Positions 3,694-62,470 of a stretch of 64,000 bases of DNA are shown one piece after another; position 1 is the stretch's first letter; every line of letters starts with the position of its first letter. Both the position numbers and the translations under genes were made by a program. The DNA comes from Gigantopelta aegis (Eukaryota > Mollusca > Gastropoda > Neomphalida > Peltospiridae): contig NW_024533092.1 of the NCBI RefSeq assembly GCF_016097555.1, forward strand, positions 34,275 through 98,274, in the 5' to 3' direction. The notes below the pieces were generated by a model that saw nothing but the letters and a program-made list of their open reading frames with translations, did no database searches and was not told the DNA's origin.

Positions 3694-4256
3694 TTAAAAT
3701 TGAGTGTCCTGTTTAGCTTTCTTCTCTTTCAATCGTTTCTGTTGTATCAGATATTGATGACGTTTAAATGTCTGCCAGTAAGGATTAAGACGAATCATGA
3801 CTTGTGAATTCTTTAGAGGGTTCTTCTTAATAGGAGCACGTCGAGATCGTCTGGGACTAGAGAGAAGAGAGTGAGTAAGCAAGTACAGTTATAAGAAATA
3901 TTTACCCTTTACGTCTGAGCTGTTTCTGGACTTCTTCAGAGTTAATAATACGAGCTAAATCACTGTTTGTCATTGTGTGACGAGGTAACCTGTATAGGAG
4001 GAACAAAAAAGACAAAATATTATTAATTATTAATATATAAAACAAAAAATTATGAACTAAACAATGGGTCCAGCATAACAATACTTACTTGTAATTTTTC
4101 TTGCATTTTGATAGCTTGTTAAATGTTCCATAAATTCGATCTAATTTCTCAAAGGCACTCTTTGTCCAAATACAAAATCGTCCCATGTGACCTCCAGGAG
4201 CAAGTCGTAACAAATTCACTTTATTCACATTTAGCAGCTCCACTCCAAGAAGATTA
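3694..4256 (-). pseudogene. RPL4 3'-terminal fragment (duplicated exons)
   Basis: The minus strand holds the last three coding pieces of 60S ribosomal protein L4: part of the exon ending [13 protein letters not shown] (4089-4256), an 84-nt exon (3906-3989, [19 protein letters not shown]) and the terminal exon (3694-3856, [19 protein letters not shown], ending DTQF and TAA). All splice sites look intact and these exons are in frame. The 5' two thirds of the gene are missing because the duplication breakpoint falls inside the exon at 4256. The terminal exon here is intact where the matching exon of the otherwise full gene at 13862 is frameshifted. Confidence 0.85.
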
Positions 4257-4723
4257 TTAGAAACATTGAATTACTGTCATTATTGATACATCATATGTGA
4301 TATAGGTTAAAACACAGAAGTATACCTATGAAAAGCCTATGTCGCTAGTGTTGCTAGGTACTGTTTTGGTCAATAATGATGTTGTATGGAGTGACTCTCC
4401 TCTGTTGTATCCATGTATAGACTGTTGTAGTCCATGTATCATCTTGTTGAACTCCACATAACTACTGAGCTATATAGATCACTTTATATATATATATATA
4501 TATACTGTGTAGTAGGAGAATGACTGACCTTAGAACAACGTAGGAAACTGACTTCACTCTCAATGTGTCTTTACTGCAAACGAGCTCTATCCTAATTATT
4601 TTGGCTTACTGAGCATGCGCAAATTGATAGCTTTCAGGACCTCGCCCCTTATACACCCTTTCATTTCAGTTGACACATTCCTGGCCTCACATTCTACGTC
4701 ATAGAGACTCCAAACGCTCCTAA
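4257..4723. promoter_or_regulatory. Upstream region of the Death/MATH gene, with a GC-palindromic promoter motif
   Basis: This region lies between the RPL4 fragment and the first ATG of the Death/MATH gene. It holds a (TA)n run at about 4484-4502, the motif ACTGAGCATGCGC at 4608-4620 and a GC box-like CCTCGCCCC at about 4640. The same 13-mer, on the opposite strand, sits in the RPL4/COMMD6 divergent promoter at 15424-15436. It resembles an NRF1-type GCGCATGC core. Promoter function is inferred from position. Confidence 0.5.
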
Positions 4724-7700: not shown

Positions 7701-10700
7701 TTGAATTTCTTTCTAAATGGGGAAATCCACCAACTCCAAACACCTGTATTGGTAAGGTTTTACATAGCCATTGTGATTATAATTTATAATTTATACATAA
7801 TACATTTAGATATCAGTCAATTAGATGAGATACTGCAAATACTGAAAAAAAGTAATTTCTCTCCACAAAGCTGGTTTTCTCTTGGACTTAATCTCGGTCT
7901 TTCGAAACCAAGATTAAATTATATTGAAGCAGAGCACAATAAAAATGCATCTCAATGTCTACAAGAGTGCTTATCTCAATGGTTGAGTAAAGCTGACAAA
8001 GTGATTGAGAAAGGAGAACCAACATGGGACTCATTAGCTAGTGCTCTGAGGAATATTGGAGAAGTTGCTGCTGCTGAAAGCATTGAAATAAGTAAGAAGT
8101 TTATAATTTATAATATATTTTAACTTTTCTTTGTATTAAACAGAAATAGAACTTTCCCATCAAGCCTGTCAAATATTATTAAAACATTATGAAAAGCTTA
8201 GACAGCTTGTTCTTCCTGTGGAGATATTATATACAGAGGAAGTCATATCTAAGGAGATATTTCATGAAATAAATAGATCAGGAGGTGTACTAGTCAATGA
8301 TCAATTTAATGCACTATGTTCTATAGTGTCTGAGGACACTGAACAATTAAAACTATTTGCTAGTGTCTTACTTCAATCAAAAGAAACAACACCTGTAGCT
8401 GAGTTTATGCTCCATGAATTAAGTAAGTAATAAGTGAACTTCATAGATCAAAATATGTTATATTTTATAGAATTATTTACTATACTACATCAATCTCAAA
8501 TATCAGATATGTCTTCTATAAATGACCAAAAGACAGGAAAAGGTTTGTATTTACAACCTTTTAAAATTTTATTATGTTTAATAATACAGAAACTACTTTT
8601 GATCAAATGCGAAAATCTTTTGGTATTCTTTTTAACACTATTGCTTGTCTCATTGAAGATAAAGTCCCTTCACTTAAGACCTCAAAACTTATCTTCACAT
8701 GTATTATAATGAACTGAGGCTTCAATTGGAATATGCTGAATCCTTTGAAGGAATCATGCTTATCATTAAAGACAAATGCACCATTATTGATATCGACTGC
8801 CTACAAACTGTTGTAAATCACTTTAATATTGAAGAAGCCAAAGATCATATAACAGATTATCAACAAGCAATTGAAGAATTCTGTGAAGAGACTAAACTTA
8901 ATGTTTGTTATAATGAGTGTTTCAATTCAACTAATTCTTCTCTTCTCAAATGTGAGACAATTGAGTTTGTTCTAGAGTGGAATGGAGATGAACACTCACT
9001 TAATGACATCAAAGTTTTGTTACAAAGGCCTTTCAAGAGATGGCTAATAGAATTCAAGTTCGATACATCAAAGAAGGCATTATTGTAACCTGCTATGCTC
9101 CACAACATATAATGAATATTCTACTGATGGAAACAGCGAAGATTCTTGACCAATTGAGGGGGAATGGATTAATGAAATTAACTATTGGCCATCATATTGT
9201 TTATGATGTCTATGCTAGAGATAAGGTAAGAAATGAGTAGTACTAGATAATATGTGTGTATGTTGATATATAGGAGGTGAGAGAGCTTGAGAAGGAAAAT
9301 GCTCTACTCAAAGAAAAGTTGAACTCCAGTAAACAAGAAGAGGGAAAAGATGTAAATAATGTTTAAAGGTAAGTTGAATGTATCTTTGAATATAAGTAAT
9401 AATATCACATTTAAAATAATAGTTACTAGTGATGAAGAATTAGAACCTGTTAAATATAAGAGAAAGGAAGAGGAAAAGAATACACTAAAAGAAGTGGAAG
9501 GTAAAATAAAGGAGTACAGAAATAATATATATAATTTATATGATGATTAGTATAATTCCATATGTATAATGTAATATTTCCTCTCTTCTATGTACTATAG
9601 TATCTAGTAGTATGGACAGACATGATCTGGTTGAGTCTTTGTCAGGTAAATACAGTGTGAATTATAATACAATCATATATTAACTGTGTACAGAGAAGCT
9701 AAAACTATTGGAGAGAATGAATAAGGCAAAGACCTTAGAGATTGAGAAGTTATCCAGACAGAATAAAGAAGGTAATCTATAATACTGTTAGTGGTACATA
9801 CCATATATGGTTATGTTCTATAGCTACTGATAAAGTATTAGTAGAGAAACAAGAAGAGATTGTGATACTTCAAGAAAAGATAACAAGACTAAATTTACAA
9901 CTAATAGAGAAAAAAGGTGAGCTATAATATTTTTATATTACACTATGTACAAAACATGTATTTATTTGTAACTACTGAACATACCATATATATGGTATGT
10001 TCAGTAGTTCTAAAACAAACACGATAAGATAAATAAGTTAATGAATAAATCACTATTGATATAAATAGAGGACAAACTTAAGATGAAGCAATTAAAAATC
10101 AGACAAATGAAACAAAAAATTGAGTATTTGCTTTAACTGGTAGCTCTAATAATACATTTCTTTGTTACAGGTTCACGAGTACCATTACTGTATGATGGTT
10201 GGAAAGCAGAGTTACAGAGTCCACCAGTTCAAACTGTTATGTCTAATTTTAACTATTACAAGAATAGTGATGAAGAGTGGTATAGTCCTAGTTTTTCTCT
10301 CTCATAGTAATGGCTATCAAATGTGTGTTCGTATAGCAGCTAATGGTGAAGATGAGGGACAAGGAACACATCTGAGTCTCTATATCCATCTAATGGCAGG
10401 TAAAAATGATGACAAGTTGTCATGGCCATTTCGAGGAGAAGTAAACATTCAACTCATTAATCATAGGGATGATCATGATCACTATGAACAGAATATAGTG
10501 TTTGATGATTCCTCTAATGTACAAGCTTGTAGTCGAGTTATTAATGGTATTCCAGTCAAAGCTGGTCTAGCAAATAGAGTAGGTGAAGGTAAAGCTCTCT
10601 TTATTGGTCAAGACAAACTTCAGACCAGTACATCTGACTTTGTATGTGACAGTATTAAAATATGTATTAAACAAGTAATCGTTCATTCATCACCACCTAC

Positions 10701-11142
10701 AGTACCTTCAACATTGACTGATCCCTTGCCTATTATTCATGACTTTGTAATTGAGAACTTTTCAAAGCGTAAACAATCTAATGAAGAATGCATCAGTGAA
10801 TCATTTTATTCTGATGAGAATGGTTATGAAATGTCTCTTTTAGTTTATCCCAATGGCAGAGATAAATGGAAAAACAAATATGTCTCCATGTTTGTTCATC
10901 TCATGAAAGGTGAAAATGACAACAAACTAACCTTTCCATTTCGTGGTGATATTCTTGTTCAAATTGTAAACCTGAGGGAGAACAAGAGTCATATTGAACG
11001 ACTTGTGGAATTTAATGAAAAGACTGACCCAAGAGAAGTATATGGGGCTCGTGTAACAGGACTGGCTGCATTGTTGTCAGGGAGACAGTATCGAGGATAT
11101 GGATTTCCAAGTTTTTTTATCTCACAAGTTTTTGGAGTTTGA
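4724..11142 (+). CDS. Multi-exon Death / ankyrin / CARD-like / coiled-coil / double-MATH signalling protein
   Basis: Not a family I can name; probably a cytoplasmic adaptor or sensor. Exons by splice signals: 4724-5051 (MAFNTETEA start, helical N-terminus); 5122-5191; 6673 to about 6855 (Death-like, WENVRVDANKWYKFG); 7012-7751 (unknown, ending in an ankyrin-like LLEAAKVGHIEATQVLLEFG); 7810-8091 (clear Death domain, SWFSLGLNLGLSKPRLNYIE); 8144-8422 and 8471-8542 (CARD-like helices); 8590 to about 9225 (conserved module with SLLKCETIEFVLEW and GLMKLTIGHHIVYD); five or so small coiled-coil exons, 9274-10130; and 10171-11142 (two MATH domains with PFRGEVNIQL and PFRGDILVQIV). No RING or TRAF zinc finger is visible. 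Frame breaks near 5150, 7130, 8700, 9045 and 10300 are probably base errors. The 1.5-kb intron after 5191 leaves open that the first two exons are a separate gene. Confidence 0.75.
5192..6672. other. Long intron or intergenic gap; no gene seen
   Basis: AT-rich sequence without a supported reading frame. The only structure noticed is an imperfect inverted repeat at about 6299-6412, described separately. It separates the N-terminal exons from the first Death-like exon of the surrounding gene model. Confidence 0.5.
6299..6412. repeat. Inverted repeat, about 30-nt arms
   Basis: The arm CATTGACTATGTTAATGTG and onward (6301-6329) is the reverse complement of the arm at about 6384-6411, apart from a 3-base gap. 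The spacer is about 55 bases. The structure could be a small MITE or a transcript hairpin within the long intron. No flanking target duplication was evident. Confidence 0.6.
9970..10009. repeat. Perfect 40-bp palindrome in an intron
   Basis: The first 20 bases, AACTACTGAACATACCATAT, are the exact reverse complement of the next 20, with no spacer. The element lies in an intron between coiled-coil exons of the Death/MATH gene. It can extrude as a cruciform or fold in RNA as a 20-bp hairpin. Confidence 0.97.
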
Positions 11143-14100
11143 TAAATCACGTAATACACAGTATGTTAGTGATGATGATACTCTACATGTTAGGATAATG
11201 AAAATAACACTTACTACTTGAGTAAAAGACAATTCATATAACAGTCAACATATAATAACATCTAATACAGTAACTAACTTTTTCCTTTTATATATTCTAT
11301 TGTTTAGTTATTTGGTTGAAGTTTTTCTTATGCTTATTAGTATTATATAATTGTTTTATTGAGATATAAATGTTTTATCAGTCAAACATGACCTGTGCTA
11401 TAACTCTACTTCATATACCACATCATCAGATCACAAGACTGAGACCATGAGTGCCTATGTCAAGATCACTTTGATATTCATAGTTCGTACAAAGCAGTCA
11501 TTCCACTGTAATGATACTGGTCATATTGAAACATTTTATTGTAAATATTGCATTGAAGCACTAGTGTTGTTAACCTTCTATACATATAATAACTAGTAAT
11601 ATAACTAGTGATTATTACCTGTAATGTGTATGGTCTATTAAGACAAAAAACCATTGATATATAGTTAACAGTTCTTGATGTTGTATTTCAACATGAGAAT
11701 TACTACAGAGACAACAATGATAGGAGAGAGAGAGAGACAATTATATAACAACTGATCATGTGACACACTTTGAGTACTAGATTAGTAGAGCGCCAACAAG
11801 GTACATAAAGTTATATCAGTAAATGACAATAACATCATCCTCACATATAGCACACAACTAATGTTCAATGAGATTATCAATATTCATTGATCTCAGGTAA
11901 TTATTCTATGTGATATTTATGATTTATTGTGTGTACTATATTATATATAATGTTCATTGTGTGGTTTATACATTATCCCTTTGGATTAAGAAAGGAAATA
12001 AAATAAGGAGTAAAAGTGAAGTTTAGGGTGATCATGTCTCCGCCATTTCTCCTTCCCAAAGGACAGAATTACTATAAAGAGAATACCAGGCCTTGCAATA
12101 AATTACAGAGTTGCTAAAGTATATGCAATACATTACTTTGAAATGTATATTTAAAAACATATTCAAGAGTATTCATTCATAACAGTTGAGATCTACTGAG
12201 TACCTTGTTTAGCTTTCTTCTCTTCCAATCATTTCTGTTGTATCAGATATTGATGATGTTTAAATGTCTGCCTGTAAGGATTAAGACCAATCATGACTTG
12301 TGAATATCATATCGTTGTTGTATCACTGAAATACTCCTCCTACATGACTCAAAACCAGTTTTAAACAGTTCAAATATACCATACAACTTATATGTTCTCT
12401 ATGACAGACTGACTAGTTTTTACCAGTAAGTTAAATAGATTTAAGATTTATAAAAATTAAAGAAAAGATGTTGTGTTGCCCAAATTCCCAGTAAATTTAT
12501 AAAAAATATTAAAAAATCAAAAAAAAAAAAACCCTTGTGTGTTGCCCAAACGATTCCTACTCGCTCACCCACTCAGGCTTCCACTTAGGCTCCAGGATTC
12601 CCTGCTATTGCTAGCTGGGACCGCCACCTGGCTTGGTAACCCTCGTCTTCGCGAGGTAATCCTGGCTGGAGCGTCGCCCTAACTTAAAACCAGCCGTACG
12701 GGATTCCAGCTCTTAGGGAATGTCGCATTCAGGAACCGGGAACCACAAATACACCAGCCTCATCTCGTTTAAAGGGAGACTACCAGCCCTATCCTAGTCG
12801 GCCTTTCGGATACTCCGTAGAGTATGCTGGTAACCATCTCAGAGGTCTGACGCATTGCAGAACGCTGGCCCACAACACACTGGCACTCATGACTGTTTCA
12901 GTTTCTTATATATGTACGTCAGATTTTGTCTTCATGTTCTTGTGGGGCGCGTTGGTGTAGCGCTATGAATCTCATTAATGATACTTGTGACTATGGTCAT
13001 AAACGTTAATAAACTAAAGAGGTTGTTTAAATAACTAACCATTTCAACAAATTACAACACTACTACTAATTATTATTAACATTATTATTATTTAATTTTA
13101 TAGACACCACAAAAAGAAACAATCTCATTAATTGTAAGTTAAATTCTTTTAAAACTTTGAAATCCAACTAAACCATTATCTGAGAAATTTCTAAGTTTAT
13201 CAATGAGATTACTTAATGTACTATGAACATAATTATAATTGTATAAACACTAAGGTATAATTGTTTATATATTGAATTATATCATAAAATATAACGTGTT
13301 TTATGTTACAATAAGACAAAACAATTAATACTGTTATTGATGTTGTATTTCAACATGAGGAATACTACAGAGACAACATGATAGGAGAGAGAGACAATTA
13401 TATAACAAGTGATCATGTGACATACTTGAATACTTCATTAATACTATCATTAGAGCACTAACAAGGTACATAAAAGCAGTAAATGGCAATAACATCATCC
13501 TCAGTAATAATAGCAAACAACTAATGTTCAATGACATCATCAATATTGTCAATGATCACAGCTAATTATTAATGTGATATTTATGATTTATTGTGTGTAC
13601 TATACTATATACAATGTTTATTGTTTGGTTTATCCTTTGACTTGAGAGAAGAAATTAAATGAAAATAAGCAGTAAAAATGAAGTTTAGGGTAATCATGTC
13701 TCTGCCATTTCTCCTTCCCAAAGGACAGAATTACTATGAAGAGAATACCAGGCCTTGCAATAAAACTAGATTTGCTAAAAGTACTATGCAATACATTACT
13801 CTGAAATGTATATTTAAAAACATATTCAAGAGCATTCATTCATAATAGTTGAGGTCTACTATTAAGATTGAGTGTCCTGTTTAGCTTTCTTCTCTTTCAA
13901 TCGTTTCTGTTGTATCAGATATTGATGACGTTTAAATGTCTGCCAGTAAGATTAAGACGAATCATGACTTGTGAATTCTTTAGAGGGTTCTTCTTAATAG
14001 GGGCACGACGAGATCGTCTGGGACTACAGAGAAGAGAGTGAGTAAACAAGTATAGTTATAAGAAATATTTACCCTTTACGTTTGAGCTGTTTCTGGACTT

Positions 14101-14450
14101 CTTCAGAGTTAATAATACGAGCTAAATCACTATTTGTCATTGTGTGACGAGGTAACCTGTGTAGGAAGAACAAAAAAGACAAATTATTAATTATTATTAA
14201 TATATAATAATAATAATACTATTATTAATAAATAAAACAAAAAATTATGAACTAAACAATGGGTCCAGCATAACAATACTTACTTGTAGTTTTTCTTGCA
14301 TTTTGATAGCTTGTTAAATGTTCCATAAATTCGATCTAATTTCTCAAAGGCACTCTTTGTCCAAATACAAAATCGACCCATGTGACCTCCAGGAGCAAGT
14401 CGTAACAAATTCAATTTATTCACATTTAACAGCTCCACTCCAGGAAGATT
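11020..14450. repeat. Segmental duplication, copy 2
   Basis: This is the partner of 812-4256. It begins in the 3' end of the second MATH domain of the Death/MATH gene and runs through its 3' flank, the GC-rich block at 12540-12965 and the last exons of RPL4. Unlike copy 1, the RPL4 similarity continues into the full gene, so this side holds the original arrangement. The non-coding stretch 11143-13861 contains no gene I can support apart from the GC-rich block. Confidence 0.85.
12540..12965. other. GC-rich duplicated block (copy 2)
   Basis: Near-identical to 2395-2830, with the same order of short hairpins and the tRNA-like GGCGCGTTGGTGTAGCGC near the right end. The few substitutions between copies are scattered. 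Confidence 0.35.
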
Positions 14451-15330
14451 ACGAAAAGCCTTCTTAATTCCACCATCTTTACTGTATATAACCAATGGTC
14501 CTTTCTTTTGAAGGTAACGACGATTCCTCATCTTACCCTTCCCAGGACGAATCCTCCTAGTCTGTTTGCTACGATCGACATCTTCATATGCTTTCAATGT
14601 CTTCAATAACTTAACAGCTTCCTTAGTTTTGTTCATGTTTTGTATAGAGTCAGTCACTACCAGTGGTATCTCTCCCACTTTACGAATACGATGACCTCGT
14701 GCTGTCACTAATGCTGGGAGTGCTGTAGCTGCTAGAGCAGAGCACATGGCGTAACGTCTTTGGTTAAGGTTGACTTTACGATGCCAACGTCGCCAGGTTT
14801 TTGTGGGTGCAAACATACGACCTTTACGACACATCTAAAACTAAAGTTAAAGACTACAACAATACATTAATAACTTAGCATTCTATGAAAAACATACATA
14901 AACAGTTATCTAACCAGTTTATCTAAGTATGGATACATTTCCAAAAGCTGCTTGACCAGAACGATGAGTACCTCCTCCTCTCACACGAGGGATACGAGCC
15001 ACAGCACGTCCAGTACCCCAAGACTCAGCACTTGTCTGATGCCCCGCCTTCCTAGATACTGCATAAGGTTGACGTTTGTTCTTAGACATATTGGTATGTA
15101 CATATTGTAAAATGTCCTGGCGTATGGGGGCCTTGAAAACAGCAGGCATTCCCACCTGAGCACAGGATTTACCCTCCTCATCAAATACTGTAACTAAAGG
15201 TCTAGCAGACTAAAGAAAAACAAAAGTAATTTATTTAAATATATTTATAATAATATCCTTACATTAATAAAACAATATTGCTAATATTTTTATAATACAA
15301 TATAATGTTTATTATTGTACGGTACCATAT
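13862..15330 (-). CDS. RPL4: 60S ribosomal protein L4
   Basis: Large-subunit ribosomal protein uL4, a structural component of the ribosome around the exit tunnel. Exons on the minus strand: a probable start ATG at 15328-15326 followed by a GTACCG donor; 14937-15209 ([18 protein letters not shown], then [29 protein letters not shown]); 14284-14834 ([31 protein letters not shown]); 14073-14156 ([19 protein letters not shown]); and the last exon 13862-14023. The protein is strongly conserved along its whole length. In the last exon one G is missing at about 13950 relative to the duplicated fragment at 3782-3783. This shifts the frame and gives an early stop, so the conserved KNPLKN tail is followed by wrong residues. 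This is probably a sequencing error, since the ribosome needs this protein. The start exon is the least certain part. It shares a promoter with COMMD6. Confidence 0.95.
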
Positions 15331-31939: not shown

Positions 31940-32738
31940 AGAGAAGAGAGAGACAGACAGAAGACAGACACCCACAACAGACAGAGTAAAAAATTAGTAT
32001 CAGTTTTTATTTACCCCCCCCAGTATTATCTTCAAATCCCATTTCCTAGTCTCTTCTTACGATACAGTTCATAATGTTGATAGTGAGTTTTTCGCGAAGG
32101 TTCTTCCATATTAACTCTAAAATATGTATCCATTGCAATTGATCCATCCATCCATCCATACAATCCATTAATCCATCAATCAATCCATCCATCCATTACA
32201 TACCGCAGCAACATTTCACGTAGTTAGTAAAGTCACAGTGTGCTTCCTTCTCAACTATACATATATACATGACATAGTTCATTTTACATTGACCACGTAC
32301 CTTCTACGTACCCCAGGGATACTTCCTAGCTCGTACCTTCTTACACCCACTTCAACCTCCTCTCGGCTACCAACAACAGCAAATGGGAGCTGCCCCTGTG
32401 ATAAGGTAATAAAATTAACTCATTAACAAAACTTATAATAGTCTATATTTTTACATTCATTTTTGATTAAGTTCTGCAACAGTTTCATCTGAAGTAGGAA
32501 ATTGATAAATCTGTATATCATGGTGATGATTTCATCCAGAATCTAGTCCCATGATAATCACATGACAGTCACATAATACTAGGTAATTGATAACTACTCT
32601 CTGTTTAAAATCTTCCAGTTCAGAGCGAGCAAACAGTGTCAGCTTTACCGATGATAGGAATTATATTGACTTTATGATCTAGCTCCTCATACATACCAAA
32701 TCAAGGGATTTTAAACTAAATGAGAGAGAGAGACAGAC

Positions 32739-48085: not shown

Positions 48086-49705
48086 GGCTGACTATTGCTG
48101 TGAGTCATGGTTGTCTTCTGCAACGATACTTGATAAGAAGGATGCGGAGTATTTCAGAACTAGCTGCCTTCTGTGACTAATTAATACTGGGAAGGAGACC
48201 TTGCAGTGGAGATTGAATATTCTACTAATAAAAATGCTGCCGATATTAATAGTGCTCATCTGTAAAAGGAGAGGTCTGCTACCAAACTGAAGAGCAGCTT
48301 GCTTTTAGTAGAGAACCTGAAATATTTTGCTACAAAACTACACCTGGTAGGTTGAGTATTAATTAATTAAAAACACATACATGTAATATTTAGGAATGGA
48401 GACTATAGTTGTTTAATACTTCTTTTTACAAGATATTTATTTCAATTTCAGAATTCTCACAACCCAATGATGACAATGGATTGCTCTCTCTATAATGTAT
48501 ACTGATCCTTTCTATGATGATTGTATACATACTATGGAACAGCTGGGAAGAAAAGACACTGAAGAAAAGAAAGTGTCCTCTACTATCAATATCCATTGAA
48601 GAGATGTTGTGAACAGACGTCTAACTCTTTGTCAGAAATCAATTTCTTCAATCTACTACTGTTATATGAAGATGGATCATCTGCTGTGAGAATCATTTGT
48701 GAGGTGTCATTGTGGACCAAAGGACTGCTGGTATTTAAATGTAGACTATAACTAATATAGACTAGACTGAACATCTTACTAAACTATTAATAGTAATGTA
48801 GTATGGGGGACAGAGTAAGCTAGTAGTAGACAATATAGGGTACTTATTATTAATCAGGTAGTGTTTAGCTGTATAGCAAATAGTAACTAGTAATAATTCT
48901 TACTGTAATAAATTATAAATCTAGAATTTTTTAGAAAGTACTGGTAATTTTTTTGTTTTGTAATCTATTTTTTTCTGTAATCTAGTATTATTTATAAACT
49001 AGTATAAGTATAGAATAGGTAGTCATCTTCAGCAAGAATCTACCATTATTGTCTACCATTGTTCTGGGACTCTACTATGAAGATTGAAAGAAATTGATTT
49101 CTCAATGTAGTTAGATGTACTGTTCACAATATCATTCAATGTTCTTTCTCTACTGTTAAAAATAGTCTACAATTATTATCATGTAAGTTTACAGTCTATT
49201 ATAATAATATGTTAGATATTAATTTATTTTATTTTTTATAGCATAGGAATATTTTCTACCATGTGGATGATGTGTCTCTGCTGTCACGATGTATTTCTAA
49301 AGAGATCTTTGTGGACAAAAGGACTACTGTTCTATTGATGCTGACAACCACACAAGAACTTGATCATTCCATGGTAAAGAAATGTGAGTAATGTAATAAT
49401 GGATGGGCTAGTGGGTTAAGATAACTGGTAAGATAGATTACTACATTTCTATTAATAGATAGTCTTTAGATGGAGGTATTAATAGGTAATCTAGACTGGT
49501 TGAATATCTGTCTTGCTAATTCTATACACTGGACAAGTTGATGGCGAGTAGAGTGTCAATAGAGTTAGATGCTTTACCCTTTTACCAATTCCCTTGGAAA
49601 AACACAGACTTTTGATGTGATAACCTCTTGTAGGAAGAGAAGCTTCCATGTAATGGAGAAGACAAATGTGAGTTTGAACTAACTGGTACAATAAGCATTA
49701 ATTAG
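48086..49705 (+). repeat. Cassette unit 1 (about 1.6 kb)
   Basis: Begins at TGACTATTGCTGTGA and has the same order of elements as units 2-5: a GCAG acceptor and first exon-like block, GTAGGTTGAG donor, second block starting AATTCTCACAACCC, a third at about 49241 and a short GAAGAGAAGCTTCCATGTAA block at 49634. Extra sequence after the first line of the unit and several indels break the frames, so this unit may be degenerate. Confidence 0.85.
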
Positions 49706-51237
49706 AACCTACTCTGGCTGACTATTGCTGTGACATTGCAGTGGAGATTCTACTAATGGTGCTGATATAATAGTAATGATATCTAATGGAGAAGTCTGCT
49801 ACCAAACTGAAGACCAGCTTGCTTTTGATGCTGTAAAGTTTTGCTACAAAAACTACCTGGTAGGTTGAGCATTAATTAAAAACACATACATGTAATATTT
49901 AAGAATGGAGACTATAGTTCTTTAATACTTTTTTTACAGATATTTATTTCAATTTTCAGAATTCACAACCCATGCAATGCTGACAATGGATTGCTCTCTA
50001 TAATGTATACTGATCCTTTCTATGATGATTGTATACATACTATGGAACAGCTGGGAAGAAAAGATATTCAGTTCCATTGTTAAAGTCTACCAAAGATCGA
50101 AAGAAAAGAAAGTGTCCTCTACTATCAATAGTCATTAAAAAGAGATATTGTGAACAGACGTCTAACTCTTTGTCAGAAATCAATTTCTTCAATCTACTAC
50201 TGTTATATGAAGATGGATCATCTGCTGTGAGAATCATTTGTGAGGTGTCATTGTGGACCAAAGGACTGCTGGTATTTAGATGTAGGCTATAACTATTGAA
50301 CATTTTACTAAACTATTAATAGTAAAGTAGTATGGGGGGATAAGCTAGTAGTAGACAATATAGGCTACTTATTAATTAGGTAGTGTTTAGGTGTATAGCA
50401 ATAGTAACTAGTAATAATTCTTACTGTAATAAATTATAAATGTAGAATTTTTTAGAAAGTACTGGTAAACTTTTGTTTTGTGTAATCTATTTTTTCTGTA
50501 ATCTAGTAATTTTAGTTATAAACTAGTATAAGTATAGAATAGGTATAGATTCATCTTCAGCAAGAATCTACCATTGTTGTCTACCATTGTGTTCTGGGAC
50601 TCTACTATGAAGATTGAAAGAAATTGATTTCTCAATGTAGTTAGATGTACTGTTCACAATATCATTCAATGTTCTGTCTCTACTGTCAAAAATAGTCTAC
50701 AATTATTATCATGTAAGTTTACCGTCTATTATAATGCTCTATGTTAGAAATTATTTTTTTTTTTATAGCATGGGACTATTTTCTACCATGTGGATAGATG
50801 TGTTGTTAGAGACATGGTACATGTCCTCTGCTGTTATGATGTGTTTCTAAAGAGAATCTTTGTGGACAAAAGGACTATGTTCTATTGATGCTGACAACCA
50901 CACAAGTACATGATCATTCCATGGTAAAGAAATGTGAGTAATAATGGATGGGCTAGTGGGTTAAGATAACTGGTAAGATAAGATTACTACATTTCTTTTT
51001 AATAGGTAGTGTTTAGGTGGAGACATTAATAGGTAATCTAGACTGGTTGAATATCTGTCATGCTAATTCTGTACACTGGACACTGATACAAGTTGATGAT
51101 GAGTAGACTGTCACTGGAGTTAGATGCTTTACTATTTTGATGTGATAACCTCTTGTAGGAAGAGAAGCTTCCATGTAATGGAGAAGACAAATGTGAGTTT
51201 GAACTAACTGGTACAATAAGCATTAATTAGAACCTGC
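49706..51237 (+). repeat. Cassette unit 2 (about 1.53 kb), the most readable copy
   Basis: Same structure as units 3 and 4. It contains the best-preserved coding frames of the array, annotated separately at 49742-50292. Confidence 0.9.
49742..50292 (+). CDS. Unrecognised two-exon (or more) protein encoded by cassette unit 2
   Basis: Exon-like block 49742-49859, after GCAG and before GTAGGT, reads GDSTNGADIIVMISNGEV, then CYQTEDQLAFDAVKFCYKNY. Block 49960-50292, after TTTTCAG, reads DNGLLSIMYTDPFYDDCIHT then, across a one-base shift at about 50062 in an A run, RYSVPLLKSTKDRKKRKCPL, RYCEQTSNSLSEINFFNLLL, YEDGSSAVRIICEVSLW, ending VFRCRL and TAA. The join between the two blocks is not in phase as read. 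A further exon-like block lies at about 50770-50935 (HGTIFYHVDRCVVRDMVHVL). I do not recognise the family. Coding is supported by preservation of these frames between units 2 and 4 and by consistent splice signals. Confidence 0.5.
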
Positions 51238-52743
51238 TTTTGGCTGACTATTGCTGTGACATTGCAGTGGAGATTCTACTAATAAAAATGCTGCTGATAT
51301 AATAGTAATGATATCCAATGGAGAAGTCTGCTACCAAACTGAAGAGCTGCTTGCTTTTGATGAAGAACCTGTAACTACCGGTAGTTAAGCATTAATTAAA
51401 AACACATACATGTAATATTTAAGAATGGAGACTATAGTTGTTTAATACTTCTTTTTACAAGATATTTATTTCAATTTCAGAATTCTCAACCCAATGATGA
51501 CAATGGATTGCTCTCTCTATAATGTATACTGATCCTTTCTATGATGATTGTATACATACTATGGAACAGCTGGGAAGAAAAGACACTGTGAAAGAAAAGT
51601 GTCCTCTACTATCAATATCCATTGAAGAGATATTGTGAACAGACGTCTAACTCTTTGTCAGAAATCAATTTCTTCAATCTACTACTGTTATATGAAGATG
51701 GATCATCTGCTGTGAGAATCATTTGTGAGGTGTCATTGTGGACCAAAGGACTGCTGGTATTTAAATGTAGACTATAAACTAATATAGACTAGACTAAACA
51801 TCTTACTAAAACTATTAACAGTAAAGTAGTATGGGGGGATAGAGCTAGTAGTAGACAATATAGGCTACTTATTAATTAGGTAGTGTTTAGGTGTATAGCA
51901 AATAGTAACTAGTAATAATTCTTACTGTAATAAATCAGATCGATCTAGAATTTTTTATAAAGTACTATTAAATTTTTTGTTTGTAATCTTATTTTTTTCT
52001 GTAATCCGGAAAGTAAATTTTTTGTTTTTCTAATCTATTTTTTTCTGTAATCTAGTATTTTTATAAGTATAGAATAGGTATAGAGTCATCTTAAGCAAGA
52101 ATCTACCATTGTTGTCTACCATTGTTCTGGGACTCTACTATGAAGATTGAAAGAAATTGATTTCTCAATGTAGTTAGATGTACTGTTCACAATATCATTC
52201 AATGTTCTGTCTCTACTGTTAAAAATAGTCTACAATTATTATCATGTAAGTTTACCCGTCTATTATAATATGTTAGAAATTAATTTCTTTTATTATAGCA
52301 TGGGACTATTTCTACCATGTGGATAGATGTATTGCTAGAGATATGGTACATGTCCTCTGCTGTATGAGACATTTATGATGTATTTCTAGAGAGATCTTCG
52401 TGGACAAAAGGACTACTGTTCTATTGATGTGACAACCATACAAGTACATGATCATTCCATGTTAAAGAAATGTGAGTAATGTAATAATGGATGGGCTAGT
52501 GGGTTAAGGTAACTGGTAAGATAGATTACTACATTTCTTTTTAATAGGTAGTGTTTAGATGAAGACATTAATAGGTAATCTAGACTGTCTTGCTAATTCT
52601 GTATACTGGACACTTGATACAAGTTGATGACGAGTAGACTGTCACTGGAGTTAGATGTGATAACCTCTTATAGGAAGAGAAGCTTCCAGAGAAGACAATG
52701 TGAGTTTGAACTAACTGGTACAATAAGCATTAATTAGAACCTA
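51238..52743 (+). repeat. Cassette unit 3 (about 1.5 kb)
   Basis: Same element order as unit 2. Relative to it, the first block loses the segment before the donor (ends GAACCTGTAACTACCGG) and the middle block lacks about 28 bases at 51590, so it is probably non-functional. Confidence 0.85.
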
Positions 52744-54299
52744 CTCTGGCTGACTATTGCTGTGACATTGCAGTGGAGATTCTACTAATGGTGCTGATAT
52801 AATAGTAATGATATCTAATGGAGAAGTCTGCTACCAAACTGAAGACCAGCTTGCTTTTGATGCTGTAAAGTTTTGCTACAAAACTACCTGGTAGGTTGAG
52901 CATTAATTAAAAACACATACATGTAATATTTAAGAATGGAGACTATAGTTCTTTATTACTTTTTTTACAGATATTTATTTCAATTTTCAGAATTCACAAC
53001 CCATGCAATGCTGACAATGGATTGCTCTCTATAATGTATACTGATCCTTTCTATGATGATTGTATACATACTATGGAACAGCTGGGAAGAAAAGATATTC
53101 AGTTCCATTGTTAAAGTCTACCAAAGATCGAAAGAAAAGAAAGTGTCCTCTACTATCAATAGTCATTAAAAAGAGATATTGTGAACAGACGTCTAACTCT
53201 TTGTCAGAAATCAATTTCTTCAATCTACTACTGTTATATGAAGAGGATCATCTGCTGTGAGAGTCATTTGTGAGGTGTCATTGTGGACCAAAGGACTGCT
53301 GGTATTTAGATGTAGGCTATAACTAATATAGACTAGACTGAACATTTTACTAAACTATTAATAGTAAAGTAGTATGGGGGGATAGAGTAATCTAGTAGTA
53401 GACAATATAGGGTACTTATTAATTAGGTAGTGTTTAGGTGTATAGCAAATAGTAACTAGTAATAATTCTTACTCTAATAAATTATAAATCTAGAATTTTT
53501 TAGAAAGTACTGGTAAACTTTTTGTTTTGTAATCTATTTTTTCTGTAATCTAGTATTATTTATAAACTAGTATAAGTATAGAATAGGTAGTCATCTTCAG
53601 CAAGAATCTACCATTATTGTCTACCATTGTTCTGGGACTCTACTATGAAGATTGAAAGAAATTGATTTCTCAATGTAGTTAGATGTACTGTTCACAATAT
53701 CATTCAATGTTCTTTCTCTACTGTTAAAAATAGTCTACAATTATTATCATGTAAGTTTACAATCTACTATAATGCTATGTTAAAAATTAATCTCTTTTAT
53801 TTTTTTATAGAATAGGAATATTTTCTACCATGTGTATAGATGTGTTGTTAGAGATATGGTACATGTCCTCTGCTGTTAAGAGACATTTATGAATTTCTAA
53901 AGTGATCTTTGTGGACAAAAGGACTACTGTTCTATTGATGCTGACAACCACAAGAGTACATGATCGCTCCATGGTAAAGAAATGTGAGTAATGTAATATG
54001 GATGGGCTAGTGAGAGCTGGAGATTACTACATTTCTATTTAATAGATAAGTCTTTAGATGGAGGCATTAATAGGTAATCTAGACTGGTTGAATATCTGTC
54101 TTACTAATTCTATACACTGGACAACTTGATGGCAAGTAGACTGTCACTGGAGTTAGATTTAGATGCTTTACCAATTTCCTTTGAAGACAAGCAGACATTT
54201 GATGTGATAACCTCTTGTAGGAAGAGAAGCTTCCATGTAATGGAGAAGACAAATGTGAGTTTGAACTAACTGGTACAATAAGCATTAATTAGAACCTGC
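52744..54299 (+). repeat. Cassette unit 4 (about 1.55 kb)
   Basis: Closest to unit 2: the frame at 53060-53260 repeats the RYSVPLLKSTKDRKKRKC segment exactly. One base is missing at about 53244 (GAAGAGGATC against GAAGATGGATC), which truncates the last frame. Confidence 0.9.
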
Positions 54300-54606
54300 T
54301 TTGGCTGACTATTGCTGTGACATTGCAGTGGAGATTCTACTAATAAAAATGCTGCTGATATAATAGTAATGATATCTAATGGAGAAGTCTGCTACCAAAC
54401 TGAAGACCAGCTTGCTTTTGATGCTGTAAAGTTTTGCTACAAAAACTACCTGGTAGGTTGAACATTAATTAAAAACACATACATGTAATATTTAAGAATG
54501 GAGACTATAGTTCTTTAATACTTTTTTTTACAAGATATTTATTTCAATTTCAGAATTCTCATGACAATGGATTGCTCTCTCTATAATGTATACTGATCCT
54601 TTCTCA
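54300..54606 (+). repeat. Cassette unit 5, left part, interrupted
   Basis: Matches the start of the other units through the first block and into the second (TACTGATCCTTTCT), where it stops abruptly at the inverted minisatellite. The right part resumes, degenerate, at about 55990. Confidence 0.85.
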
Positions 54607-55100
54607 ACCATAACTACTGTATGAAATTGAGAAATCTACCAAGAATATTAGACAAGACAGCCATCGTGCAACTCAACCATAACTACTGTATGAAATTGAG
54701 AAGTCTACCAAGAATATTAGACAAGACAGCCATCGTGCAACTCAATCATAACTACTGTATGAAGTCTACCAAGAATATTAGACAAGACAGCCATCGTGCA
54801 ACTCAATCATAACTACTGTATGAAGTCTACCAAGAATATTAGACAAGACAACCATCATGCAACTCAACCATAACTACTGTATGAAATTGAGAAGTCTACC
54901 AAGAATATTAGACAAGACAACCATCGTACAACTCAACCATAGCTACTGTATGAAATTGAGGAGTCTAACAAGAATATTAGACAAGACAACCATCGTACAA
55001 CTCAACCATAGCTACTGTATGAAATTGAGGAGTCTACCAAAAATATTAGACAAGACAACCATCGTGCAACTCAACCATAACTACTGTATGAAATTGAGAA
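54607..55100 (+). repeat. 69-bp minisatellite, left (forward) arm
   Basis: Seven or so copies of a 69-base unit, ACTGTATGAAATTGAGAAGT through ATCGTGCAACTCAACCATAA. Two copies are 8 bases short. The unit is 23 codons with no stop in one frame, so an open frame (MKLRSLPRILDKTAIVQLNH repeated) arises by periodicity. I do not regard it as a gene. Confidence 0.95.
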
Positions 55101-55230
55101 GTCTACTATGTGAAAGTCTACCATAAAATTGAAAGTACAAAAAAGGATCTTCTGTTCACATATCTATTCAAATGGTCAGAAGATCCTTTTTTGTACTTTC
55201 AATTTTATGGTAGACTTTCACATAGTAGAC
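55101..55230. repeat. Perfect hairpin: two 54-nt arms, 22-nt loop
   Basis: Bases 55101-55154 are the exact reverse complement of 55177-55230, with the loop at 55155-55176. The arms continue outward as the inverted 69-bp minisatellite with slight mismatch, so the whole 54607-55980 interval can fold back on itself. Confidence 0.97.
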
Positions 55231-55980
55231 TCCTCAATTTCATACAGTAGTTATAGTTGAGTTGCACGATGGCTGTCTTGTCTAATATTCCTACAGTAGT
55301 TATGGTTGAGTTGCACGATGGCTGTCTTGTCTAATATTCTTGGTAGACTTCTCAATTTCATACAGTAGTTATGGTTGAGTTGCACGATGGCTGTCTTGTC
55401 TAATATTCTTGGTAGACTTCTCAATTTCATACAGTAGTTATGGTTGAGTTGCACGATGGCTGTCTTGTCTAATATTCTTGGTAGACTTCTCAATTTCATA
55501 CAGTAGTTATGGTTGAGTTGCACGATGGCTGTCTTGTCTAATATTCTTGGTAGACTTCTCAATTTCATACAGTAGCTCAATTTCATACAGTAGCTATGGT
55601 TGAGTTGTACGATGGTTGTCTTGTCTAATATTCTTGGTAGACTTCTCAATTTCATACAGTAGTTATGATTGAGTTGTACGATGGTTGTCTTGTCTAATAT
55701 TCCTGGTAGACTTCTCAATTTCATACAGTAGTTGTCTTGTCTAGTATTCTTGGTAGATTTCTCAATTTCATACAGTAGTTATAGTTGAGTTGCACGATGG
55801 TTGTCTTGTCTAATATTCTTGGTAGATTTCTCAATTTCATACGGTAGTATGATATGAGTTGCACGATGGTTGTCTTGTCTAATATTCCTGGTAGATTTCT
55901 CAATTTCGTACAGTAGTTATAGTTTGGTATACTTCTCAATTTCATACAGTAATTATGTTGCATGATGGTTTGTCTTGTCT
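55231..55980 (-). repeat. 69-bp minisatellite, right (inverted) arm
   Basis: About ten copies of the same unit in reverse orientation, becoming irregular after 55730. The minus strand therefore carries the same open 23-residue periodic frame (55251-55724). Confidence 0.95.
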
Positions 55981-55989
55981 AGTATTCCT

Positions 55990-56330
55990 GGTATCTTTGC
56001 AGACAAAGGACTACTATGTCACTGATGTCCTGCTGTCACAGGATCTATAGTAAGCACACAAGTACATGATGCCTCTGTGGAAAAATGATAAATGTGAGTG
56101 CTAATGTAGTCATGAATGTACTATTGAGCTAGCTGGTATGAGGGGATCTGGTCATGTTTTCTTTTTGTTTAGGTAGAGAGTATTATAGCATCTAAACTGG
56201 TTAATGATCCTTGCTGATTTTGTACTGGACACTGATACAAGTTGATGGTATGAGGACTGTCACTGGAGTTGGACGTTTTACCTGTTATTATGTGAGTGCT
56301 AATGTAAGGTATTGGTAGTTTGAGCATTAA
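55990..56330 (+). pseudogene. Degenerate right end of cassette unit 5
   Basis: The sequence resumes the order of the other units: GACAAAGGACTACT, CACAAGTACATGAT, a GTGAGT donor-like site, then TTGTTTAGGTAGAG, ACTGGACACTGATACAAGTTG and ACTGTCACTGGAGTTGGA. Divergence is much higher than among units 1-4. It suggests an older copy, or faster decay after the insertion of the inverted array. Confidence 0.7.
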
Positions 56331-57502: not shown

Positions 57503-60500
57503 TTAATAACTTGATAATTGTCCAAACTTCTTACAATGCTCTTTATGTTGTCTTGATAAGTGTAGTTTCTGCAATGTAGTATTTTCAGTAAGTGATGTGC
57601 ATATTATTGTGATATCATCATCGTTCAGTGAAGTATCATCAAGACATAGTCTTGTCAATGATGTATTTGTGCATATAAGTTCAGCTATTGTACTGGTACT
57701 AACTGAAGTAACCTGATGATTACATCCTATGTTCAACTCAGTCAGTGTTTGGTTTTTACTGAGTCCATCGCAGATATATTGGACATTATTATCAGTGATA
57801 TTACAGAAAGACACTTCTAATATTTTTAATGTTTTATTATTGCATAGCATCTTAGATAAGTGAGTAATATCTTCATCTGTGACAATAACCTTATGTAATA
57901 CTAATTCTTCAAGTGTTGTATTAGTAAAGAGAACATCGCTAACTTGTTTGATACCACCTCTAAATGGACATGTATTCAGTTCTAGTTGCTTCATTGTTTT
58001 ATTAGTTGTTAGTATCTCTGACAATCTTGATACACACATACTGTCCAATGAAGTTTTCTCTATATCAAGTCTCCACACTGTACACATATTAAGATTTTTA
58101 ATTATTACTGCAGCATTTCAGGAGATGATGAAAACAAACGAATTCTCCATTCTTTTCCTGTTTGTTGTTCTTTCATTAAACTATTCATTACATCTTCACA
58201 TTGTTCAATAGTTGGTGAATCAGTATAACAATGTTATCTTCATATTTCCACTCAACAATCCCAGTGTCTCCTGTTATAAAACAATGTTAGTATAGAGTAT
58301 AATACATACATAGTAATATATAGTGTAAAAATAAATGCTACACTTATAATGTCAGTGCCTTAAGTTACAAAATGGAGAAGAGTGTACATGAACCATATGC
58401 CAATATTACCTACACACAGCACTAAAACATGCGCTATGTGCTAGTAATTAATACCTTTATGATCATCATCTTTACTTAGATGTGTCTTTCCTCTTCACTT
58501 TGTATAATATCTGAAGTACTTGTCGATGTATTCAGTTTATCAGTTGCTATCTCATCAAGTTTTTTGACTTAACTCTGGATTGACAGACTTCATCCAAGCA
58601 CTTACTGCTGCTATTCTAGATTGTAGATCTATAATAATATAGCATTAACTGAAGTAACTATAAAATATTATTTCTTACTCTTCATGTTTCCATTAACTGA
58701 CTAATCTTGTCTTCTCTTGCTTTTAATTGCAAAGTCAATGATGTTATTTTCTCCTGGAGTATCTCAATCTCTTCTTGTTTCTCTACTAATACTTTATCAG
58801 TAGCTATATAGAACATAACCATATATGGTATGTACTACTAACAGTACTATAACTCACTTTCTTTTTGCCTGGTTAACTTTTCTATTTCTAATGTCTTTGC
58901 CTTACTCATTTGGACTCAATTTTTAATTTTTTCTCTTAGGTCCGAGTCTGATATCAACTGACTGGACACTGAATAATCTACATAAATATTATCAAAATTA
59001 AGAGTAAAATGGATTTTAGTAAAGAGTAAAATATTTTAGTAAGGAATAAAATATTTAGTATACTAACTAAAAATAAACCTAATTGACTACATTAATAAAA
59101 CTAAAACTAAAGGTTTGCTGCACAAAACCCAAAACTATAAACCCAAAATTTAATTTAATTTTTATAAATTTAATTGTTGACCTTATTGTTTATTGCTTTT
59201 ACCACAAACCTAATAATAATCAACTTCTACTTATAAGAAATTCTATTTATAGCTGCCACTATATCTGTAACTATATATAGCTACTATTTACTACATGATT
59301 ACCTGTATTAATTTTAGTGACTTTAATTTTTCTATCTCTTTCAATTTTTCTTGTAGAATAGCTAAGACAGTTGTCATTTATTTAAACTTGAATATAACTC
59401 ACTTTTGTCATCCTCTGATTGCTCTCTTAGTGAAGCATTTCTTTTTTCAAGATCTTTCACTTTATCTGTGAGACACCTGACCTCCTACATATCAACACAA
59501 CAAATTACCATATTATACTTGTCTTACAAATACTTATCTTTTGTATATACATCCCAAATGGTACAATGACCTATAGTCATTCTAATTAACCCCTTAATTG
59601 AGTGGACAGTCTTACGAGCTTTGACAACAAGCAATCGTACAGATTGAGTGGGAAGGTACAGGCCACAACAATGGAGTTGCCTTCTTTGATGACTTTCACT
59701 GTTACCATTTCTCCAGTCTTTCGAAGGCAGCTGACATAATATTTTGTGATATCGCTTAACATGGACTCATCTGGATCCAATTAAGGGACAAAAAGTGGCA
59801 GTTTCGTCTTTAAGAGGAGAAAACAGTTGTTGTTGCTGAAAGATTTCTTGTAACAGAGACGAACAGAAATAGATTGACAAAATGATCTATATCTTTCTTG
59901 TAAGACTCAATATCGAATTAGCTTCTTTATATTGAATCGTGTCACCACTGCTTCAAGATAGTTGATATCAATTAGTGTACACTTGTCACGAACAATGTCC
60001 AACACATCACGAATACTTTTAGAGTGAGCTAAAGATGGTTTGAGCAAAGAGTCACAATCTTCAAGAAACGTTTTCATATCTTCCAGTGGAGGTGGGTTCT
60101 CTTCAATTTTATTTCTGATCCTGTTAAAGGTAATTCCAATTTTGTTTCTAACAGCAGTAAATTTTGGACTCATACTTCGAGGAATTAAAATTTTTCTTTG
60201 GCTCTACAATAAAAATTTCTAGTAACAGTAAACTCAAACAATGTTCATACCTTGTTGTGAGCTGCTAACAACATCAGATGGACAGTTCCTGAAATAAAAG
60301 CAAGCATCATATTACCACTTTATATTGAAACATACTGTCATTGACATCAGGACCAATGGCTTGAACTTTATCTTTCTTAACAGCTATTGCTGTAAGGATA
60401 TATTCATAGTTTGTAGAATGTCATTCATAGTTCATATACTAACCATAGTCATTAAAAATAGCATCACCAAGTGGTACATTTTCAGTGAATCTCTTAAACA

Positions 60501-62470
60501 CTAGCAATACCTCCAGGCGGTGATGATTGGCATGAACAGCAGACGTATAGCTTTTAACAAGACTGTCCTCTGAGTGGCAGTTGTCCACTGTCCTCTATAT
60601 AAGCTAGGGTTGTATCAGATATTACCCTCCACTTCACATAGATGTTGTGCCACTTTGATAGGATGAAGAAGATATTGAGATAAAGTTCCATAATAATTAC
60701 AGAATATCACTAGCAATATCTTTCCAGAACTCATCTGATCATCTCTTACTACTTCTAGTAAAAAGTTCCTCTTTGTTGTTAGGAAAATTTTGAGCTGGAA
60801 CAGCAAAAAAATATTAAAATACATGAAAATTTTATCACTTACCACATTCACTAAGAAGTTGATGTGCTATTGAACTCATCTCCTCAAATTTGGACAGAGT
60901 TTTAGCTAAAACTTGGAGCTTCCGATGATCTGAAGACACTGCTGTAGATATAGCAGTCAAGAGAGTTGTCTTTTTATCATTCAATGAGGTCTCCAATGTC
61001 TCTACTTCATCCAGGGTTATTTCACTAATATATCTCTCACTATATAATAACTGAGATATTTGAACAGGATAGATCAAAGCCTGTGATAGTGTAGTATAAT
61101 AGTGTTTGTAGAATGCCACTGGCTTTGTTAGGAATCTCTTGTGCTATATTAGTAGACAAAATTTAGTTGATTTTCATAATACATGAATGCTCACTCATTA
61201 TATATCTAATACTCACTGGTGGTACTGGACATACAGCTCTTTCAATGTTATCTCATATTGCTCAGCAAGTGTTATCTCTCCGATAATGCTTTCTTAAACA
61301 CTTTAAACAATTCATTCCTTGAAGCTTGAGAGTTAGTATTTAACCATAACTGGAACATCTTTGTAGTTTTAAATAGGACATCTTTGCTCAGTTCCTCAAT
61401 AGTGTCTAGTTCCTTGATATTCTAACTTTTAACTGTACTCCAACCAAATACCACTTAGTACCAACTCTAATATGTTCACATAACTCATCAAGAGGTGGTG
61501 TCTCACTTAATGTCTCTCAAATGACATAGGTCTGATAGCCTTCTATTAGATCTAAAGACAAATGATGTCTGGAGTTAACTTACATAAGACAATTGATTAG
61601 TTTACAGCTAGTTTAGGGCAAGGCTAAAATTCCTGCATACCTTATAATTACATGTAAGTGAAGTCTGACATTTAATTATGTTATTTATCAGAACCACAGC
61701 TATTTTTATAGGATTCATTATCATCACAATTTCAAGGTAAGACATTCTGTGGAAGTTTCACAATAATAATTGAATGTGAGAAGTAATCATTGACAAATTA
61801 TGGACACAATTATTATAAATAAACTAAAAAATTTCAACATAGTTATTATCTAGTACTTCAGTACTCCAAGTTAGTGACTTTAGGACAGTTGTCAAGATAT
61901 ATGCACATCAAGTTCTACAAATATTCTGACATACTAACAGATAACATTTGACAGACGTGAGATATATCATTAGCAGCAGCAGGAAGTCTACTTTATTATT
62001 ATAATAATGTTTAGAATTTAGGCCTAGGGATGGGGATCAGTTTGATACACAATAGAATATGGACTTATTCCTGTATCTATAGCCATTGCCTACTTTTATA
62101 CTGCTAAATTCCATCACCCATGGCCTATAATATGTGATATTCACTCACTGCAGTGACATAATGTTCTGTCAATGTTGTCTCATATTGCAAAGTTAAACTC
62201 TTGTCCAACAAACTTCCATCTTCAATGTTTCCACAATTTCTCTTCTGGTAGCATGAGGATAGTATCCAACCATAATCATTACATTTTTGACACTTTATAA
62301 GTGACAGTCCTGGGTAACTCTCAATTTCAGTTACTTTCTAACATCCAATTCAAGTTTGATACAAGTCCATCATATACAGTTAGTACTAATAGGAACATAT
62401 TATATAACTCATTACTCAAGGGACATAATATTCCACTAACACACTATTGTTAAATGTATACCTGAAAACA
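57503..62470 (-). CDS. Multi-exon Death / CARD / coiled-coil / leucine-rich-repeat signalling protein
   Basis: A paralogue of the gene at 4724-11142. Reading the minus strand from the right: a degenerate Death-like piece (about 62460-62160); a Death domain (about 61500-61240, LCEHIRVGTKWYLVG, then MFQLWLNTNSQASRNELF); a CARD-like domain (61119-60841, ISQLLYSERYISEITLDEVE); a second CARD-like domain (about 60760-60440, YYGTLSQYLLHPIKVAQHL); the conserved module (60173-59586, IRDVLDIVRDKCTLIDINYL, then VKVIKEGNSIVVACTFPLNL); coiled-coil exons (59500-58700, including ATDKVLVEKQEEIEILQEKI); and five or six ribonuclease-inhibitor-type LRRs (about 58270-57503, NKTLKILEVSFCNIT, NTSLTRLCLDDTSLND, NTTLQKLHLS). 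Unlike NLRs, no NACHT P-loop was found. Several one-base breaks interrupt the frame. The start codon was not identified, and 57503 is the LRR stop. Confidence 0.7.

Follow-up and report, generated by a model that had tools for sequence, protein, structure and literature searches.

We analyzed a 64,000-nucleotide stretch of contig NW_024533092.1 in the Gigantopelta aegis genome assembly (C929:34275-98274 in our contig numbering; hereafter the window) and characterized a minus-strand gene within it, here called the target gene. The encoded protein opens with a Death domain and two CARD-like domains, continues with a two-part module and a coiled coil, and ends in ribonuclease-inhibitor-type leucine-rich repeats (LRRs); the reading frame of the gene is interrupted several times (Table 1). 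With X inserted at the frame breaks, the Death domain scored 22.4 bits against a PF00531 cut-off of 22.6, that is, 0.2 bits short. Pfam scans returned no match for the larger piece of CARD-like domain 2 or for the linker portion at 58479-58568, weak coiled-coil families only for coiled-coil segment 2, and nothing over the cut-off for the helical first half of the module, where the best family was RecG_N (E 0.0023, 19 of 23.1 bits). At least 0.6 kb upstream of the target Death domain, the minus-strand segment 62125-62337 resembles the C-terminal half of a Death domain by eye and may be what is left of a second Death exon; it was the sole open reading frame (ORF) scanned within 61520-62470 and gave no domain and no Pfam match at E 0.01.

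Table 1. Domains of the target gene and extent of its sister gene, in window coordinates
Feature	Position	Strand	Evidence or content
Death domain	61216-61516	-	Broken frame in three ORF pieces; PF00531 E 1.4e-4 with X at the breaks
CARD-like domain 1	60838-61143	-	57% identity with CARD-like domain 1 of L015; donor-like GTAAGT at its end
CARD-like domain 2	60442-60866	-	Two ORF pieces; 58% and 38% identity to CARD-like domain 2 of L015, E 5.8e-6
Module, whole	59527-60203	-	Helical half plus probable TRADD-N half
Helical first half of module	59910-60203	-	Family motif KCTxIxIxxLExxV (alignment A6)
Probable TRADD-N domain (second half of module)	59527-59780	-	Two ORF pieces; profile comparison, conserved Ser
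Coiled-coil segment 1	59377-59484	-	Heptad contrast equalled in 15 of 5000 shuffles
Coiled-coil segment 2	58685-58834	-	Heptad contrast equalled in 69 of 5000 shuffles; matching exon in 16 of 16 intervals
Linker exon, coiled coil to LRR	58479-58644	-	ORF pieces, frame broken; tentatively assigned by position
Ribonuclease-inhibitor-type LRR	57506-58271	-	LRR_6 E 2.2e-6; 204 codons open; shared acceptor
Sister Death/MATH gene	7797-11139	+	Death domain and a single CARD-like domain ahead of the module (including its TRADD-N part), followed by MATH domains

Copies of the target gene were sought across the whole assembly (1.15 Gb, 5216 contigs). Searched as DNA, the LRR exon had 41 matches (40 of 167 candidates scored), with identities of 77-81% except for the self match; a search with the module listed 150 matches of 497 candidates, some pairs of which are two pieces of one gene. 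In 36 of the 41 LRR-exon matches (the target itself and a partial match on C707 among them), a module lies 1.1-4.3 kb upstream on the same strand, and the other five have no upstream module among the 150 matches listed. Therefore, the layout of the target, which goes well past what chance would give, is that of a real gene and not a fusion artefact.

For closer comparison we used 15 LRR-exon loci with their flanks, picked by LRR similarity, to which the target was added to make 16. In every one of the 15 fetched loci the module precedes the LRR on the same strand, and CARD-like domains could be placed in all of them, in L017 only by a later query. A coiled-coil exon was matched between module and LRR in all 16 intervals, target included. 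In all 13 loci placed, the LRR exon began at a common splice-acceptor context that ends in AG. The open frames conserved between the two ends of these intervals look like coiled coil and linker. Heptads of coil segment 2 stood out in L015 (equalled in 14 of 3000 shuffles) and L023 (1 of 3000) and were borderline in L011 (278 of 5000); in the paralogues, those of the first conserved coil exon were not significant (570 and 1012 of 3000 shuffles). A Death domain related to one with Pfam support is present in nine of the 15 loci, four of which (L009, L011, L012 and L014) carry one subtype and five of which (L013, L016, L019, L021 and L023) carry the subtype of the target, likewise upstream of the CARDs. 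The Death domain of L014 passed the Pfam cut-off at 26.8 bits, and a small Death-domain profile found FADD in the PDB (E 0.004). In every fetched locus but L010 (14 of 15), a frame break falls inside one domain or more. The preliminary description of this DNA had assigned the LRRs to the same gene as the Death and CARD-like domains and had proposed a coiled coil ahead of them, and these comparisons bear out both statements.

The same description held that the target repeats the front end of a Death/MATH gene, which lies on the plus strand of the window. This is supported: we found a Death domain, CARD-like sequence and the module in both genes, with one CARD-like domain in this sister gene and two in the target. 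The sister Death domain lies over the PF00531 cut-off (E 1.5e-6), its CARD-like domain is 54% identical to the family CARD query, its module pieces (8720-9037 and 9019-9237) are 49-52% identical to the family module, and its TRAF/MATH match covers two stretches (E 7.5e-42). An open frame just upstream (7094-7786, plus strand) gave a weak ankyrin-repeat match below the cut-off (E 0.0055) and may be part of the sister gene. Outside the window, two further module copies lie on the plus strand at C929:13585-14100 and 32020-32481, and the contig therefore carries at least four such genes.

To characterize the module, we aligned 22 copies (alignment A6), leaving out stop-bearing pieces and poor copies; 13 of the rows came from 18 further fetched places. 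By eye, the second half of the module reads as strand-helix-strand-strand-helix-strand, and a serine that the target also has (S120) reaches 90% conservation or more in A6. As a reference we took the TRADD-N domain of NCOA6, found on contig C6 with PF13820 (E 7.7e-27). A 19-sequence family profile matched it with a score of 15.1 (P 0.006), when 300 shuffles gave at best 12.3 and none of 120 other real segments exceeded 10.4, and the alignment kept in register the conserved serine, a proline after strand 3 and a glycine before strand 4. An earlier form of this test with a two-sequence NCOA6 profile (P 0.011) was not trusted alone, because an unrelated control pair reached P 0.031. One PDB search with the module gave a ligase at E 0.69, and 32 genome-contig and 26 viral-contig pattern matches sought as prokaryotic or viral relatives of the module yielded none that could be confirmed at the sensitivity used. 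On this sequence comparison, the second half of the module is quite likely a TRADD-N domain, and what had been described as an unrelated module is most likely a helical segment followed by TRADD-N.

We next considered NACHT, whose absence had also been claimed. None was found in six Pfam-scanned pieces of the target, and none was listed on its contig by a genome search for NACHT (33 matches listed, 110 of 129 candidates scored, E 0.001). Neither the target nor its 15 fetched paralogues yielded a NACHT domain, and the Walker A motif [GA]x4GK[ST] occurred in none of the 16 gene spans in sense frames, so the claim stands on Pfam, genome and motif searches alike. The same contig set does encode NACHT genes beside the target's family: among the 33 listed matches, 28 are on small contigs and five on chromosome-sized contigs. 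The 17 small NACHT contigs and the 27 LRR-exon contigs do not overlap among the matches listed. We compared 30 NACHT loci (25 on small contigs), each with about 1.5 kb on both sides, and none contained the queried Death, CARD, module, coiled coil or LRR at E 0.01; for this reason the NACHT genes look like a family apart from that of the target. An upstream helical segment of the VTWETVIDAIK type is common to five of the 25 small-contig NACHT loci (L025, L041, L045, L047 and L053) and six of the 15 family loci (L010, L015, L018, L020, L022 and L023), lying upstream on the same strand in the NACHT loci, with a best identity of 57% (E 1.5e-10). The assignment of this segment as a Death domain was dropped, as Pfam and the PDB gave it no support.

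To explore how the domains evolve, we estimated the ratio of nonsynonymous to synonymous substitution rates (dN/dS) in 16 sequences (the 15 loci and the target; 13 for CARD), dropping stop codons and match ends. The ratio was 0.97 for the LRR, 0.52 for the CARD and 0.36 for the module. The most variable LRR columns fall on every other position of the LxLxx strand and recur with a period of about 28 residues. Moreover, the 28 solvent-exposed positions of the concave face had a dN/dS of 1.53, compared with 0.80 for the rest of columns 41-250, and the true phase ranked top of 28 shifts. Sequence errors inflate dN, yet they should not track the repeat phase. The LRR surface of the family thus looks like a ligand-binding face.

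Nucleotide distances between the one-CARD and two-CARD groups were 0.205 for the LRR (0.172 within the one-CARD and 0.252 within the two-CARD group), 0.523 for the CARD (0.141 and 0.448 within groups) and 0.500 for the module (0.380 and 0.377 within groups). Module and LRR distances were uncorrelated (Spearman 0.02, 120 pairs), and CARD distances correlated with those of the LRR at 0.53 and of the module at 0.32 (78 pairs each). An exchange of LRR exons between subfamilies is indicated by these distances but not proven, because the loci were picked by LRR similarity, which favors low LRR distances. The concave-face diversification and the apparent exchange of LRR exons seem to be new here; in the portions of the literature available we met no report of selection on the LRRs of TRADD-N families, which does not prove that none exists.

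Several known systems share part of this architecture. TRAF proteins combine a coiled coil with MATH, and in the family studied here the sister has MATH heads behind the shared front and the coiled coil precedes the head; the target differs from TRAFs in bearing LRRs where these have MATH. TRAFs also carry RING and zinc fingers, neither of which was found by Pfam in the scanned target pieces. TRADD shares with the target a Death domain and a probable TRADD-N domain with the conserved serine, and it is not known to have an LRR or coiled coil. In the available text on TRADD (PMC8195603) its Death domain is C-terminal, whereas that of the target is N-terminal, and the sequence link between the two runs only through the NCOA6 profile match. 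Animal NLRs, with Death or CARD followed by NACHT and LRRs (for example in Dysidea avara, PMC12909245), have in common with the target an N-terminal death-fold domain, C-terminal LRRs and expansion in sponges, and the accessible parts of the reports on sponge NLRs define them by NACHT and LRR (Koutsouveli et al. 2026, PMC12909245; Pita et al. 2018, PMC6208332). The target has the death-fold domain and the LRRs at the corresponding ends; unlike in NLRs, no NACHT or P-loop was found in it or its 15 fetched paralogues, and NACHT genes lie at separate loci.

The closest counterpart is a class of TRADD-N proteins from the sponge Amphimedon. As far as the available text of Kaur et al. 2021 (PMC8195603) goes, TRADD-N is an RRM-like domain with a conserved serine that acts as a relay between flanking domains; its "uS" motif is a tiny residue followed by serine at the beta2-beta3 turn. 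The same text counts 357 TRADD-N proteins in Amphimedon, with one to three Death-like domains, TRADD-N, and then ankyrins, SH3 with LRRs, MATH or others, and argues for a role in recognition from this architecture and from TRADD-N entropy. The target shares with the NCOA6-clade TRADD-N proteins described there the one to three Death-like domains, a probable TRADD-N domain, a variable C-terminus including LRR or MATH, and a large lineage-specific expansion. At the N-terminus, a Death-like domain is over the cut-off in L014 and in the MATH sister and just below it in the target; the probable TRADD-N domain sits where the constant part gives way to the variable one in this lineage-specific expansion, ahead of the LRR head in the target and of the MATH head in the sister. 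The LRRs follow SH3 in Amphimedon and a coiled coil in the target, a comparison made with the printed description, in which an exact match is possible. The target and its MATH sister thus closely fit this class of sponge immune genes, which, by the available text (PMC8195603), was already known. The idea of the preliminary description, an NLR whose NACHT had been replaced, gives way here to Death-like, TRADD-N and LRR or MATH as a sponge architecture already in print in the accessible part of that paper.

Together, these results make it probable that a large family of intracellular Death-CARD-TRADD-N proteins, specific to one lineage and differing in exchangeable heads, includes the target, whose LRR head is carried on a coiled-coil stalk. 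A number of observations pull the other way. At the front end, L010, L015, L018, L020 and L022 show only the unrecognized helical segment at the Death position, and L017 ends too early. The CARD label is weak: PF00619 was found in two of 18 aligned pieces (best E 0.11), and in a PDB search with the CARD-like domain the RAIDD CARD came second (E 0.78), behind an unrelated enzyme (E 0.38). In the putative TRADD-N domain, the residue preceding the conserved serine is Asn in most cases and Asp, Lys, Gln or Tyr in some, and not tiny; the hhalign probability for the family against NCOA6 TRADD-N was 2.6%; direct Pfam scans gave TRADD-N in one of 22 members (E 0.12), amid other chance-level families; the two genome matches of PF13820 both lay outside the target's family; and the module profile had no match in the PDB. 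No SH3 domain before the LRR was recognized in ten Pfam-scanned pieces of the intervals between TRADD-N and LRR. In the LRR, dN/dS was raised at shifted phases too (1.30 at +2, 1.24 at -3 and 1.22 at -4) and reached 1.66 in columns 1-40. Finally, the frame breaks are compatible with the target copy being dead.

Some of these points lend themselves to other explanations. The second half of the module could be a separate, lineage-restricted alpha/beta domain and not TRADD-N, which would make the family Death/CARD-LRR sensors with a new central relay. The lack of significant matches in the Pfam, PDB and PF13820 genome searches would fit such a domain, as would the unconfirmed pattern matches and the non-tiny residue before the serine; against it, the NCOA6 profile match is in register and beats all shuffles and real control segments, and the domain context equals that of the printed Amphimedon proteins in the available part of PMC8195603. 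We regard this account as rather unlikely. Another alternative accepts the family and declares only the target copy inert, a dead pseudogene among live relatives. Its several frame breaks speak for this, all the more as an RPL4 gene on the same contig is open over 184 and 96 codons. Yet breaks inside a domain also affect 14 of the 15 fetched loci, the target LRR exon is open over 204 codons, and stops occur in 21 of the 28 small-contig NACHT matches and in none of the five on chromosome-sized contigs, as an error-prone assembly of small contigs would give. That the target is dead is accordingly possible, somewhat short of an even prospect.

An origin from NLRs, in which an ancestral receptor built as Death/CARD-NACHT-LRR gave up NACHT and acquired the module, would explain why the upstream helical segment of some NACHT loci is related to that of family loci. 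The disjoint contig sets and the absence of the queried family domains within about 1.5 kb of any of the 30 NACHT loci run counter to it; so does the excess of module candidates (497) over LRR-exon candidates (167), by which the module is not tied to the target's LRR type. Such a derivation is quite unlikely. Scarcely credible is the suggestion that the LRR exon is part of a neighboring gene and that the first description had joined two genes: the module-LRR gap of up to 4.3 kb in paralogues would allow it, but the kept order and strand in 36 of 41 matches, the coiled-coil exons in every interval and the common acceptor at the LRR exon all argue for one gene.

The contig itself probably comes from an animal other than the one that supplied the chromosome-sized contigs, most plausibly a sponge that was assembled together with the main species. 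The first part of this assignment is based on four observations. All 150 listed module matches (of 497 candidates) lie on C30 (255 kb) or on contigs numbered 607 or higher, none of them chromosome-sized; the RPL4 gene of the window (14283-15209, minus strand) shares 45-76% identity with the RPL4 exons on C2; the GC content of NACHT loci is 0.31-0.36 on small contigs and 0.36-0.47 on chromosome-sized ones; and the two sets of NACHT matches differ in stops as given above. The assignment to sponges is not proven and is based on the architectural match with Amphimedon. Elsewhere in the window, a segment of about 2.6 kb is repeated at 1698-4267 and 11847-14462, about 10.15 kb apart, with 93-97% identity over the matched blocks, and its first copy carries an RPL4 piece (C929:38362-38535, 93%). 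About four tandem units of 1.5 kb occupy 48564-54444 and include 300-nt and 187-nt blocks of 100% identity, and an array of 69-bp tandem units in both orientations follows at 54534-55993, with inverted arms 88-99% complementary and open frames of up to 175 codons.

As a member of a Death-CARD-TRADD-N family with variable heads, the target would, we infer, be a diversifying intracellular receptor. Its LRR head would bind a foreign or self ligand. The coiled-coil stalk could plausibly multimerize the protein, by analogy with TRAFs, whose MATH lies behind a coiled coil much as the sister's MATH heads lie behind the same front. TRADD-N would pass the change on, the role that Kaur et al. propose for such domains in general, and the clustered Death and CARD domains could nucleate FADD- or RAIDD-type assemblies, with death or an inflammatory response as the output. 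Because clustering would be achieved by the coiled coil, oligomerization would proceed without, and would not need, an ATP-driven NACHT. A bolder version pictures a sponge germline repertoire of NACHT-less receptors with cassette-swapped LRR exons and positively selected concave faces, anticipatory in nature and possibly serving allorecognition, that signal by ATPase-free coiled-coil clustering and death-fold polymerization; in this full form we consider it distinctly unlikely.

If the family is what we take it to be, an early animal lineage would run a large family of LRR-bearing intracellular receptors beside its NLRs, without a NACHT motor. The diversification of the concave face with a period of 28, together with the uncorrelated distances of LRR and module, would then offer a testable sign that these TRADD-N proteins are recognition receptors.

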